Below, piece by piece: positions 1 to 40,253 of a DNA stretch of 64,000 nt (positions are counted from its first letter, which is position 1; each line of letters begins with the position of its first letter). Origin of the DNA: Gammaproteobacteria bacterium (GTDB taxonomy: Bacteria > Pseudomonadota > Gammaproteobacteria > Steroidobacterales > Steroidobacteraceae); assembly GCA_025357915.1 (NCBI GenBank), contig JANYLH010000016.1, forward strand, positions 1 to 64,000, given 5' to 3'. The notes under the pieces are model-generated. The model was not told the DNA's origin. It ran no database searches and saw only the letters and a program-made list of their open reading frames with translations. Made by a program: the position numbers and the translations under genes.

Positions 1-203
1 GGTGCGCTCTTACCGCACCCTTTCACCCTTGCCAGCACCGTTTCCGGCACTTCGGCGGTTTACTTTCTGTTGCACTTTCCGTGGGCTCGCGCCCCCCAGG
101 CGTTACCTGGCACCTCGACCCGCTGAGCCCGGACTTTCCTCCACCTCCTGCATGCGCCCCGAAGGGAACATGCAGTAAGCAGCGATTGCCTGGCCGGCTC
201 TCC
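1..203 (-). ncRNA. rnpB: RNase P RNA, bacterial type A, 3' part missing (truncated by window start)
   Basis: Reverse complement contains the conserved rnpB blocks GAGGAAAGTCCGGGCT, GGTGCCAGGTAACGCCTGGGGGG, GTGCAACAGAAAGTAAACCGCCGA and AAGGGTGAAAGGGTGCGGTAAGAGCGCACC. It sits next to rsmI, as is common in gammaproteobacteria. The 5' end is approximate. Confidence 0.95.
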
Positions 204-36062: not shown

Positions 36063-37337
36063 ATGCCGAAACCCGCGCCACGCAATGCCGTCTACGCCCA
36101 GTCCGGCGGCGTCACCGCCGTCATCAACGCCTCGGCCTGCGGGGTCATCGAAACCGCCATGAAGCACCGGCGGCACATCGGTCGCGTCTATGCCGGACGC
36201 GACGGCATCGTCGGCATCCTCACCGAAAACCTCATCGACGTGGGCGCCGAGGACCGCGCGACCATTCGCGCCCTGCGCCATACGCCGTCCGGTGCCTTCG
36301 GCTCGGCGCGCTTCAAGCTCAAGGGCCTCGAGCAGAACCGCGCCGAGTACGAGCGGCTGATCGAAGTGTTCCGCGCCCACGACATCGGCTACTTCTTCTA
36401 CAACGGCGGCAACGATTCGATGGACACGGCGCACAAGGTGTCGCAGATCGGCACGCAGCTGGGTTACCCGATCGCCTGCATCGGCGTGCCCAAGACCGTC
36501 GACAACGACCTGCCGCACACCGATTGCTGCCCGGGCTTCGGCTCGGTGGCCAAGTACATCGCCGTCTCGACGCTCGAGGGCGCAATGGACGTCGCCTCGA
36601 TGGCGCGCACCTCGACCAAGGTGTTCGTGCTCGAAGTGATGGGCCGCCATGCCGGCTGGATCGCCGCCGCCGGCGGACTCGCCGGCAGGAAGCCCGGCGA
36701 GGCACCGCACATCATCCTGTTTCCGGAAATCGCCTTCGACAAGGAGAAATTCCTGGCGCGCGTGAAGCAGTGCGTCACCGATTACGGCTACTGCGTGATC
36801 GTGGTTTCCGAAGGCGCGCACTACGCCGACGGCAAGTTCCTCGCCGAGGCCGGCACCAAGGACGCCTTCGGCCACACGCAGCTCGGCGGCGTGGGGCCCG
36901 TAGTCGCCAACATGGTGCGCGAGGCGCACGGCTACAAGTTTCACTGGGCGGTGGCCGACTACCTGCAGCGCGCCGCGCGCCACATCGCTTCCAGGGTCGA
37001 CGTCGAACAGGCCTACGCGGTCGGCAAGGCGGCGGTCGAGTACGCCGTGCAGGGCAAGCACGGCGTGATGCCGGCGATCAAGCGGCTGTCCTCGAAACCC
37101 TACCGGTGGAAGATCGTGCCGGTGCCGCTCGAGGCCGTAGCCAACGTCGAGAAGATCGTACCGCGCCATTTCATCACCGCGGATGGCTTCGGCATCACCG
37201 CGGCCTGCCGCCGCTACCTCGAGCCGCTCATTGGCGGCGAGGACTATCCGCCGTACCGCAACGGATTGCCGGACTACGCCCACCTGCGCGGCAAGGCGGT
37301 GCGCCGCAAACTCAAGGGCGAATACACGCTCAAATGA
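36063..37337 (+). CDS. pfp: Pyrophosphate-dependent 6-phosphofructokinase
   Basis: NAVYAQSGGVTAVINASACGVI; YNGGNDSMDTA; GVPKTVDNDLPHTDCCPGFGS; VLEVMGRHAGWIAA. PPi-type residues: Asp after GGN, and Lys in PKTVDND. Confidence 0.93.
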   Translation: MPKPAPRNAVYAQSGGVTAVINASACGVIETAMKHRRHIGRVYAGRDGIVGILTENLIDVGAEDRATIRALRHTPSGAFGSARFKLKGLEQNRAEYERLIEVFRAHDIGYFFYNGGNDSMDTAHKVSQIGTQLGYPIACIGVPKTVDNDLPHTDCCPGFGSVAKYIAVSTLEGAMDVASMARTSTKVFVLEVMGRHAGWIAAAGGLAGRKPGEAPHIILFPEIAFDKEKFLARVKQCVTDYGYCVIVVSEGAHYADGKFLAEAGTKDAFGHTQLGGVGPVVANMVREAHGYKFHWAVADYLQRAARHIASRVDVEQAYAVGKAAVEYAVQGKHGVMPAIKRLSSKPYRWKIVPVPLEAVANVEKIVPRHFITADGFGITAACRRYLEPLIGGEDYPPYRNGLPDYAHLRGKAVRRKLKGEYTLK

Positions 37338-37543
37338 ACGACCAGGCACGCTTTGAAAGCCTCGAGATCAAGCTCATGCACCTGGAGGACGCACTCGCCG
37401 GGCTCAGCGACGCCCACACGCGGGCGCAGCGGGAACTGGGTGAGCTGCGCGAGCAGGTGCGCATCATCATTGAGCGGCTCGCGGGCCACGAGGAATCGCA
37501 GGGCGCCAGCGCGACCGCTCACGAGCCGCCGCCTCACTACTAG
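37334..37543 (+). CDS. slyX: SlyX family protein
   Basis: MNDQARFESLEIKLMHLEDALAGLSDAHTRAQRELGELREQVRIIIERLAG...EPPPHY; typical SlyX coiled coil and PPHY terminus; ATGA overlap with pfp. Confidence 0.9.
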   Translation: MNDQARFESLEIKLMHLEDALAGLSDAHTRAQRELGELREQVRIIIERLAGHEESQGASATAHEPPPHY

Positions 37544-37559: not shown

Positions 37560-39326
37560 TCAGTGTCCGGTGGGTGGCTCGTGCTCGCGGTGGTAGCGGT
37601 GGATCGTCCATAGATAGCTTTCCATGAGCGAGTCCTTGCCGAGGCTCACCAGCACGTCGTTGCGACGGCCCGACGTCGCCAGGCGCCCGAGTTCGAGGCG
37701 GGCGTGGGCGAAGTGCCGCAGCTGGTTGCGGTATTGCCACAGCAGTTCGCGCGTCGCCATTTTGTCCTGGTGCAGTTCCCATACGCCGAGCAGCACGGCC
37801 AGGAACCCCATGCAAAAGGTCAGCAGGTTTTTCAGTGAGACGCCAAAGCCGATGGTGGCATGCTGCAGCGAATCTCCGAACAGGAACAGCGTCACGATCA
37901 CCAGCACTATGACGGCGAACAGCGTGTTGCGGAGCAACTTGACGCGGCCGCTGCTCTTTTCGAGCGCCGCCACCTTGGCGGTGAAATAGCGGTGCTGGCT
38001 TTCGATCCAGTATTTCTCGACGCAGCGTGAGCGACGGCTGTCGGGATCGACGTGCGTCGCGGCGTGCACGTCCGGCACCTCCACGTCCGCCAGCACGTAG
38101 CTGATCCAGCTGAAACCGCGGAAGCGATCAATGCCTGACAGCGACAGCACTTCCGCGGCATCCACGCGGTGATCGACTCCGGCCAACCGCAGGTAGAATT
38201 TCACGCGCATGGTTTCGGCGAGCGCGCGATACGTCAGGTGCTTGGCGAACCAGTGACGGTTGCGCAGCACGTAGTACAGGCCCAGGCTCGTCAGCAGCAC
38301 CACCAGGTACGCGATCAGCACCAGTTTTGACTCGGTGAGCTTCTCGTAGATCAGGTAGGCGAGGCCCATGGTAAAGGCCATCACGCCGAACAGCTTGAAC
38401 AGCAGGTCCGAGCGCTGCTGATAGTAGACCGCGAGGGCATCGGCCTTGCCGTACTGCGCGTCGATGTCCTCGAGCATCAGCCGCGGGTCGCGCGGCGCAT
38501 CAGCCGGGAGCGCCGCGAGCAGCGACTCCGGGGTACCAAGGCTCCCCTCGTCCAGCATTTCACGATATTCGCGGTTGTAGCGGTTCAGTTCGGCCAGCTG
38601 GTGCGCCAGCGGCGCTGGCATGGTCTGCTGCATCTGCAGCACGTTATCGCCCACGCCCCGCAGGTAACCCGGCTGCCGGAGCGCCGCCGCCGGACCTTCG
38701 GCGCCGCGCACAGCGGGCGTCCAGTAGACCAGGGGTTCGGCGCTGTCGAGGTCCTCGACCGAGTCGACCAGCGAGATGTTGTCGGTCACCTGGTTGAGAT
38801 CCGAACGGACACCCAGATAGCGCAACACCGTGTCGGCCGTGCCGCCAGGGAGCCGTGAGGGACTCCCGTCCCACAGGGCCAGCAACAGGCTGCTGCGCCG
38901 GATCAGCGTCTCGGTCAGGTTGGCGTACAACGCATCGCGTCGCGCCTCCGCGCCGGTCAGTGTGTCCACATGCCGGGGCGGGCGCAGCTCCGTGCAGCGC
39001 ACTTCGGCGCGAGCCAGCAGATCGCGCAGCAGCGGGAGCGTGGTCGCATCGAAATCCGCGGCGTACTGTTCCAGGGGCATGGGCAGCACGGCCTCGACGC
39101 TCACGCCCAGATCGAGCACGGTCTGCGCCACCAGCAGGTCCGCGCCCTCGGCCATGCCCACCATGACGCGCAACTCGGTATCCGGCAGGCGTTGGCGGAT
39201 TTCACGCACGAAGGCCCCGACTGCCTCGCGCAAGCGCCCGAGATCCGCCGGATTCAGATCGCGGTGGCCCGAGACGCCGACGATGAACGGGGAATTGCCG
39301 CTGGCGGCTTTGGTGACTATGCCCAC
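37560..39326 (-). CDS. SLOG-like nucleotide-binding domain plus 4-TM (SLATT-like) protein, function unknown
   Basis: N-terminal Rossmann-like FIVGVSGHRDLNPADLGRLREAV...VMVGMAEGADLLVAQTVLDLGVSVEAVLPMP...SSLLLALWDG...GGTADTVLRYL; C-terminal half has two TM pairs. Start at GTG 39326 avoids overlap with the divergent gene. Confidence 0.75.
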   Translation of the reverse strand: MGIVTKAASGNSPFIVGVSGHRDLNPADLGRLREAVGAFVREIRQRLPDTELRVMVGMAEGADLLVAQTVLDLGVSVEAVLPMPLEQYAADFDATTLPLLRDLLARAEVRCTELRPPRHVDTLTGAEARRDALYANLTETLIRRSSLLLALWDGSPSRLPGGTADTVLRYLGVRSDLNQVTDNISLVDSVEDLDSAEPLVYWTPAVRGAEGPAAALRQPGYLRGVGDNVLQMQQTMPAPLAHQLAELNRYNREYREMLDEGSLGTPESLLAALPADAPRDPRLMLEDIDAQYGKADALAVYYQQRSDLLFKLFGVMAFTMGLAYLIYEKLTESKLVLIAYLVVLLTSLGLYYVLRNRHWFAKHLTYRALAETMRVKFYLRLAGVDHRVDAAEVLSLSGIDRFRGFSWISYVLADVEVPDVHAATHVDPDSRRSRCVEKYWIESQHRYFTAKVAALEKSSGRVKLLRNTLFAVIVLVIVTLFLFGDSLQHATIGFGVSLKNLLTFCMGFLAVLLGVWELHQDKMATRELLWQYRNQLRHFAHARLELGRLATSGRRNDVLVSLGKDSLMESYLWTIHRYHREHEPPTGH

Positions 39327-39374: not shown

Positions 39375-40253
39375 ATGGGCGCCAACAAGAATCTTCCCGG
39401 CATCATCGCCATGGTAGCGGCCGCGGCGCTGTTCACGGTGATGGACGCCGGTATGAAACTGCTGGCGGAACACTATTCGCCGATGCAGGTGACGGCGCTG
39501 CGGAGCCTGGCCTCGCTCCCGCTGGTCTACGTCTACGTTGCCTGGCGCAGCTCATTCGCCGCCATGCTGCGCGTGCGCTGGCCGTTGCACATGCTGCGCG
39601 GCGCGCTGGCGGTCGTCATGCTCTACACATTCGTGTACGGGTTGCGACAGCTGCCGATGACCGAGACCTACACGATCTTTTATGTGGCACCGCTCCTCAT
39701 CACCGCGCTGTCGGTGCCCTTGCTCGGCGAACGCGTCGGCGCGGCGCGCTGGCTGGCCATCGTCATCGGTCTCGCAGGCGTGTTGATCGTGCTGCGGCCC
39801 ACGGGTGCGGGCGTATTCACGCTCGCCGGACTCGCCGTCGTGGCCTCGGCGGTCTGCTACACGATCTCGGCGATTGCGGTGCGCATACTCGGGCGCACCG
39901 ATTCGATGGAGAGCCTGATGTTCTGGCTGATTTCGATGCTGGCGTTCGGCTCGGCCGCCCTGGCATGGCCGCATTGGCAAACGGTACGCCCGCAGGACGC
40001 GTGGCTCATCACCGGGGTCGGTATCACGGGATTCTGCGGCCAGTGGGGCATAACCTACGCCTTCAGGCATGGCGAAGTCTCGGCGATCGCGCCGTTCGAA
40101 TACACCTCGATCGTGTGGACCCTCGGGCTAGACCGGCTGCTGTGGCAAACCGTTCCTGACCACTACACGCTGCTCGGCGCGGCGATCATCATCGGGGCGG
40201 GCGTATTCCTGGTGCGACGCGAACGGCTCCACATCGAGGCCGAGCACCCTTAG
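39375..40253 (+). CDS. DMT/EamA family transporter
   Basis: 10-TM-like; MVAAAALFTVMDAGMKLLAEHYSPMQVTALRSLASLP; ERVGAARWLAIVIGLAGVLIVLRP. Confidence 0.92.
   Translation: MGANKNLPGIIAMVAAAALFTVMDAGMKLLAEHYSPMQVTALRSLASLPLVYVYVAWRSSFAAMLRVRWPLHMLRGALAVVMLYTFVYGLRQLPMTETYTIFYVAPLLITALSVPLLGERVGAARWLAIVIGLAGVLIVLRPTGAGVFTLAGLAVVASAVCYTISAIAVRILGRTDSMESLMFWLISMLAFGSAALAWPHWQTVRPQDAWLITGVGITGFCGQWGITYAFRHGEVSAIAPFEYTSIVWTLGLDRLLWQTVPDHYTLLGAAIIIGAGVFLVRRERLHIEAEHP

Follow-up and report, generated by a model that had tools for sequence, protein, structure and literature searches.

A SLOG protein with two SLATT-like membrane domains, probable effector of a Thoeris-like TIR pathway in Steroidobacteraceae

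A stretch of 64,000 nucleotides from a member of the Steroidobacteraceae (contig JANYLH010000016.1 of assembly GCA_025357915.1; the window) contains a minus-strand gene whose product, as supported by sequence profiles and a predicted structure, consists of a SLOG sensor followed by two two-helix membrane domains of SLATT type (Table 1). Since in many relatives the gene adjoins one for a TIR protein, an NAD-cleaving immune enzyme, its product probably serves as the membrane-attacking arm of an immune pathway resembling Thoeris. We favour, with some confidence, an account in which this protein is the sensor-effector subunit, a signal made by the TIR protein being read by the SLOG domain and answered by an action of the SLATT domains on the membrane.

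Table 1 Features of the SLOG-SLATT locus (positions in the window)
Feature	Position	Strand	Remarks
SLOG-SLATT_3-SLATT_1 fusion gene	37560..39326	-	588 codons; open frame, family alignment, AlphaFold2 model, purifying selection
SLOG (YpsA/DprA-like Rossmann) domain, residues ~12-205	38712..39293	-	Foldseek; Pfam YAcAr/DprA matches in relatives
GHRD motif, residues 20-23	39258..39269	-	First nucleotide-loop motif of SLOG; G20/H21 near-invariant in 19 relatives
EGAD motif, residues 60-63	39138..39149	-	Kept in intact members; lost in L023, L024 and the second L118 copy
GGTAD motif, residues 161-165	38832..38846	-	19-member alignment; LOG-motif glutamate absent
SLATT_3-like two-helix membrane domain, residues ~282-385	38172..38483	-	TM1 ~307-327, TM2 ~330-354; NCBIfam SLATT_3 and model
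SLATT_1-like two-helix membrane domain, residues ~430-582	37581..38039	-	TM3 ~463-486, TM4 ~495-518; Pfam/NCBIfam SLATT_1 in relatives and model
pfp (PPi-dependent phosphofructokinase)	36069..37337	+	Context only; synteny in G000, G002, G004, G013
slyX	37334..37543	+	Convergent neighbour, 16 bp from the SLOG-SLATT stop codon; context only
EamA-family transporter	39375..40253	+	Divergent neighbour, 48 bp away; context only

The frame runs from a GTG at 39324-39326 to a stop codon at 37560-37562 with no internal stops, and the plus strand of the interval is interrupted by stops. One relative (L020) has an ATG at the position equivalent to this GTG. Relatives from kindred genomes could be aligned over their full length (19-member alignment) at identities down to 23-27%, and dN/dS against the two nearest relatives was low (0.20-0.23 for the gene, 0.17-0.27 for the SLOG part and 0.19-0.21 for the SLATT part), which together indicate that the frame is coding and not due to chance. 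In L056, L057, L061, L058 and L041, what seemed to be long upstream fusions turned out to be read-through of GC-rich open frames rather than domains.

Taken alone, the window protein matched no Pfam family, and searching PDB sequences with the protein and the profile as queries returned nothing meaningful, the zinc-finger matches obtained being due to chance. Its AlphaFold2 model (mean pLDDT 85.3, pTM 0.85) comprises a Rossmann domain (residues ~14-205), a short strand region (residues 220-233) and helices 282-329/334-355 and 430-488/498-523. A first-pass annotation, made from the DNA letters, had recognised a Rossmann/LOG-like signature at the N-terminus and two C-terminal transmembrane pairs, and read them as a fusion of SLOG and SLATT-like modules. 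All the motifs that it quoted are present, and the structure prediction of both halves that it had proposed as a check yielded a Rossmann/SLOG fold and two two-helix membrane domains, in line with its proposal.

Among solved structures, the best Foldseek match of the Rossmann domain was YpsA (2nx2; E 6e-4, probability 1.00). DprA (probability 1.00), ShosA and the 3'cADPR-bound SLOG domain of BcThsA (7uxs) followed with weaker E-values and probabilities of 0.94-1.00, and the list also included the N-termini of TRPM4, TRPM8 and TRPM2. The Rossmannoid fold of the model, its Foldseek matches and the nucleotide-binding loop motifs place the domain in the YpsA-like SLOG superfamily. Profile matches point the same way: Pfam YAcAr was matched by 7 of the 19 alignment members (best 8e-5, under the gathering score), and relatives scanned singly matched YAcAr and DprA at the N-terminus, under curated cut-offs. 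LOG enzymes carry the catalytic motif PGGxGTxxE. Intact members of the family read GGTAxxV, with no glutamate at the LOG position, which ruled out a LOG-type enzyme and makes ligand binding the likelier role of the domain, that is, a sensor rather than an enzyme. The search of a viral structure library returned stand-alone SLOG proteins only. Paralogues in which GHRD, EGAD and GGTAD are changed and the SLATT half is intact were found in three loci (L118:9515-11251, L023:8069-9775 and L024:8229-9911, all on the minus strand); the one in L118, which is arranged tail to tail with an unchanged copy adjoining a TIR-TPR gene, is perhaps a regulatory subunit. Another copy (L029:7752-10265, minus strand) has a tandem pair of SLOG domains ahead of the SLATT pair.

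SLATT domains (SMODS- and SLOG-associating 2TM effectors) were reportedly described by Burroughs in 2015, and the general idea of such effectors was probably proposed there. Hydropathy and the AlphaFold2 model both give the SLATT two-helix topology twice, as two membrane helix pairs with short outer loops. Positive charge accumulates on the side of the SLOG domain and the C-terminus, both of which are therefore placed in the cytoplasm. An additional hydropathy window (63-81) that barely exceeded the threshold falls within the Rossmann domain. Most members gave SLATT_3 and SLATT_1 matches in register with these pairs, all below curated cut-offs. Twelve of the 19 members matched NCBIfam SLATT_3 in the same region (best 5.7e-6, below the cut-off), as did the window protein itself, weakly and below the curated cut-off; in relatives scanned singly, SLATT_3 or DUF4231 was found mid-protein, and SLATT_1 fell at the C-terminal end or, in some of them, on the first helix pair, again below cut-offs.

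The connection with TIR proteins emerged from the relatives. A TIR profile built here was run over 71 SLOG-SLATT loci of the same bacterial family, the expectation being derived from the density of Pfam TIR_2 in the same genomes. A TIR-domain gene was located within 5 kb in 28 of the 71 loci against 0.76 expected (Poisson P 8e-34, a value inflated by ignoring kinship), and TIR_2 occurred in 58/68 genomes with a SLOG-SLATT gene versus 44/133 without (P 7e-13, also ignoring kinship). The 43 loci without a TIR gene within 5 kb (contig ends account for some; at others the neighbours are STAND or patatin genes or seem unrelated) speak against a Thoeris-like reading, as do the lack of Pfam matches for the window protein and the SLATT matches below cut-offs. 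Clustering of the flanking genes revealed a TIR-TPR protein as the recurrent neighbour, and its TIR domain passed the Pfam TIR_2 and ThsB_TIR cut-offs (38.1 vs 21.2 bits for ThsB_TIR); PADLOC scored the partner TIRs weakly against its ThsB models. No SMODS/CD-NTase gene was seen among the recurrent neighbours by inspection of the flanks. The first-pass annotation had looked for such a cyclase; the partner enzyme of the family is a TIR protein. Its picture of a lone sensor-effector lacking a signalling enzyme is correct for the window locus. For the family, in which TIR or STAND genes recur adjacent, neither that picture nor its other proposal, a house-kept nucleotide-stress sensor, is supported, and the window genome itself encodes a ThsB-type TIR-TPR protein in trans.

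The partners are arranged in four recurrent layouts. In the first, a small TIR gene lies directly upstream on the same strand (nine loci: L032, L096, L097, L101, L104, L106, L109, L116 and L122); its product, of ~230 aa, has a conserved C-terminal region without Pfam match. Upstream of it, L032, L101, L104 and L109 encode a membrane protein of Tll0287-like/HAMP type that carries a CxxCH haem site (Pfam on the L104 copy); L039, L040, L044, L045 and L048 have a related sensor-TIR pair in divergent orientation (CxxCH read directly in L044 and L045). In the literature searched, no paper mentioned Tll0287 and TIR together. In the second layout a TIR-TPR gene is either divergent (L042, L046, L054, L055 and L059) or co-directional (L023, L024, L028, L029 and L031; ~6 kb off in L023 and L024). 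The third has other TIR proteins (L052, L053) or SIR2-TIR plus nSTAND1 (L051, L056), and the fourth nSTAND1-TPR without a recognised TIR, assigned by Pfam in L027 and by homology in L026 and L123-L128; a similar divergent gene makes L144 a candidate for this layout. A small membrane protein (~170 aa) is encoded directly downstream of the SLOG-SLATT gene in STAND-TPR loci (L027:8011-8526, minus strand, with equivalents in L123 and L128), and a patatin-like phospholipase gene (L130:2442-3737, minus strand) is transcribed divergently from a SLOG-SLATT copy whose sequence has diverged strongly. On a quick tree the partner class changed at least 18 times and the small-TIR layout occurred on both sides of the deepest (midpoint) split; therefore, either partners have been exchanged or the link is ancient. 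Such swapping is typical of modular immune cassettes.

SLOG-SLATT genes were detected in 84 of 217 genomes of the bacterial family (some being fragments or weak matches) and in 21 of the 399 sampled across the phylum. In a whole-collection search with close relatives as query, the named records of near relatives were Gammaproteobacteria/Steroidobacteraceae MAGs. Phage records yielded no relatives; plasmids yielded none with one divergent member as query and three records with the window protein. The TIR link was also found in plasmids of named Caballeronia and Methylorubrum isolates and in other Pseudomonadota; the Caballeronia plasmid carries a SLOG-SLATT gene annotated as DUF4231 followed by a TIR gene. 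Patchy distribution and repeated partner swapping, plasmid copies adjoining TIR and caspase genes, and a divergence faster than that of the neighbouring genes (identities of 71-77% against 86-95% in the four species with shared synteny described below) all argue against a non-immune membrane regulator, a TRPM-like ligand-gated channel that would tune the envelope instead of killing, its partner reporting NAD or redox state. That reading, which we consider unlikely, draws on the redox-sensor appearance of the Tll0287-like/HAMP haem protein in some cassettes, on the stability of the window copy among housekeeping genes under purifying selection, and on the combination of SLOG and channel known in TRPM proteins, which were among the Foldseek matches. 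The same haem protein suggests to us, quite tentatively, a three-gene cassette of periplasmic haem/redox sensor (Tll0287-like-HAMP), small TIR and SLOG-SLATT-SLATT channel, in which envelope or redox disturbance, not a cytosolic phage protein, might trigger an NAD-derived signal that opens the SLOG-gated channel; this would be a third type of TIR pathway acting at the membrane.

At the window, the gene shares its site between pfp (with slyX, which was not detected in G013) and the EamA gene with three other genomes (G000, G002, G004 and G013 in all) and is missing from the sister genome G014, where pfp and EamA are ~10 bp apart; it is therefore accessory, occupying one constant site within a small clade. 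The slyX and pfp surroundings reported by the first-pass annotation, to which EamA can be added, are real, but this housekeeping position is confined to four closely related species. Neither the window copy nor any of its three closest relatives has a TIR gene nearby. This counts against the Thoeris-like reading, as does the fixed place among housekeeping genes, atypical for a defence island. A family search of the window genome for TIR genes outside the locus detected several TIR proteins encoded elsewhere. One of them, a TIR-TPR protein on contig C66, scored 41.3 bits, above the ThsB_TIR cut-off, shares 40% identity over 568 aa with the TIR-TPR neighbour in L046, is also kept in G002, and is the most plausible candidate partner in trans. 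These TIR proteins, the strong TIR linkage of the relatives and the frequency of TIR genes in genomes with the gene make it very unlikely that the window protein defends the cell alone, its SLOG domain directly sensing a phage-made or phage-altered nucleotide, as the partnerless but conserved copies of the window and its kin could suggest; for the family as a whole, the TIR linkage led us to reject a stand-alone system. Next nearest to the window clade on the tree are L038, with a STAND-like gene, and L042, with a TIR-TPR gene. Such neighbours of the nearest outside relatives, and the existence of copies with eroded SLOG motifs (L023, L024, second L118 copy), would fit an orphaned remnant that lost its partner and either retains little function or has taken on another one, but the window copy has intact motifs and a dN/dS of about 0.2 in both halves, and we give this reading hardly any weight.

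In the Thoeris-like pathway that we favour, infection or stress would set off the TIR enzyme by way of the TPR, STAND or haem-sensor modules attached to it; the enzyme would then turn NAD+ into an ADP-ribose-type messenger. The conserved pocket of the predicted SLOG fold (GHRD, EGAD, LLALWDG and GGTAD) may bind this messenger, and binding would change the arrangement of an oligomer built from the two fused SLATT domains, making the predicted four-helix module open up or form clusters in the inner membrane. The cell would thereby be depolarised, and phage growth stopped or the cell killed. In the window clade, the gene may have moved to, or been left at, its site between pfp-slyX and EamA, and would answer a TIR protein encoded elsewhere.

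In Thoeris, the 3'cADPR signal of ThsB is read by the SLOG domain of ThsA, and the TM-macro ThsA of type II acts through membrane clustering (PMC11204291); a type IV with a caspase-like effector has also been described (PMC12847820). As in type I (ThsB TIR and SIR2-SLOG ThsA), a TIR gene adjoins a gene with a presumed SLOG receptor and the TIR-TPR neighbours pass the ThsB_TIR model, but here SLOG is N-terminal, the putative effector half consists of a pair of SLATT membrane domains where type I ThsA has SIR2, and the partners are TIR-TPR, small TIR or SIR2-TIR/STAND. As in type II, a TIR signal would drive a membrane effector via ligand-induced clustering (PMC11204291), but the receptor is SLOG and not macro, and the effector has four helices in two SLATT units. 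Since the window locus has no adjacent TIR gene and its effector, a SLATT pair beside the SLOG domain, is none of the described ThsA types (SIR2-SLOG, TM-macro or type IV caspase), we did not file it as Thoeris.

SLATT is required for phage defence by DRT10 (PMC12632851); phage TIR-SLATT gene pairs and the idea of SLATT as an ADPr-regulated effector have also been described (PMC9503650). The window protein shares with such effectors its SLATT_3- and SLATT_1-like domains and a nucleotide-conflict context, but carries both units and the SLOG receptor on one polypeptide and is linked to TIR, not to RT or SMODS. TRPM channels likewise join an N-terminal SLOG (MHR1-2) receptor and a membrane module on one chain, but their transmembrane module is unrelated; the TM-score of the match is low and a whole-chain overlay is not meaningful. 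PADLOC gave no ThsA matches and has no model naming a SLOG-SLATT protein, and the combination of TIR and SLOG-SLATT was found neither there nor in openly accessible papers, although SLATT proteins on the one hand and TIR-SLOG systems on the other are known. If the reading is correct, it would define a Pseudomonadota-wide, Thoeris-like branch absent from PADLOC, with fused receptor and membrane effector and a freely swapped TIR sensor. It would make the old prediction of SLATT as a nucleotide-gated pore testable with two genes (TIR and SLOG-SLATT), provide a bacterial SLOG-gated membrane protein to compare with TRPM, and raise the question of why some cassettes include a haem-binding envelope sensor. 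A Methylorubrum plasmid (L190:8938-11386) encodes a stand-alone SLOG protein of the same type followed by TIR, caspase and TIR genes, an array that resembles a caspase-type Thoeris with separate SLOG.
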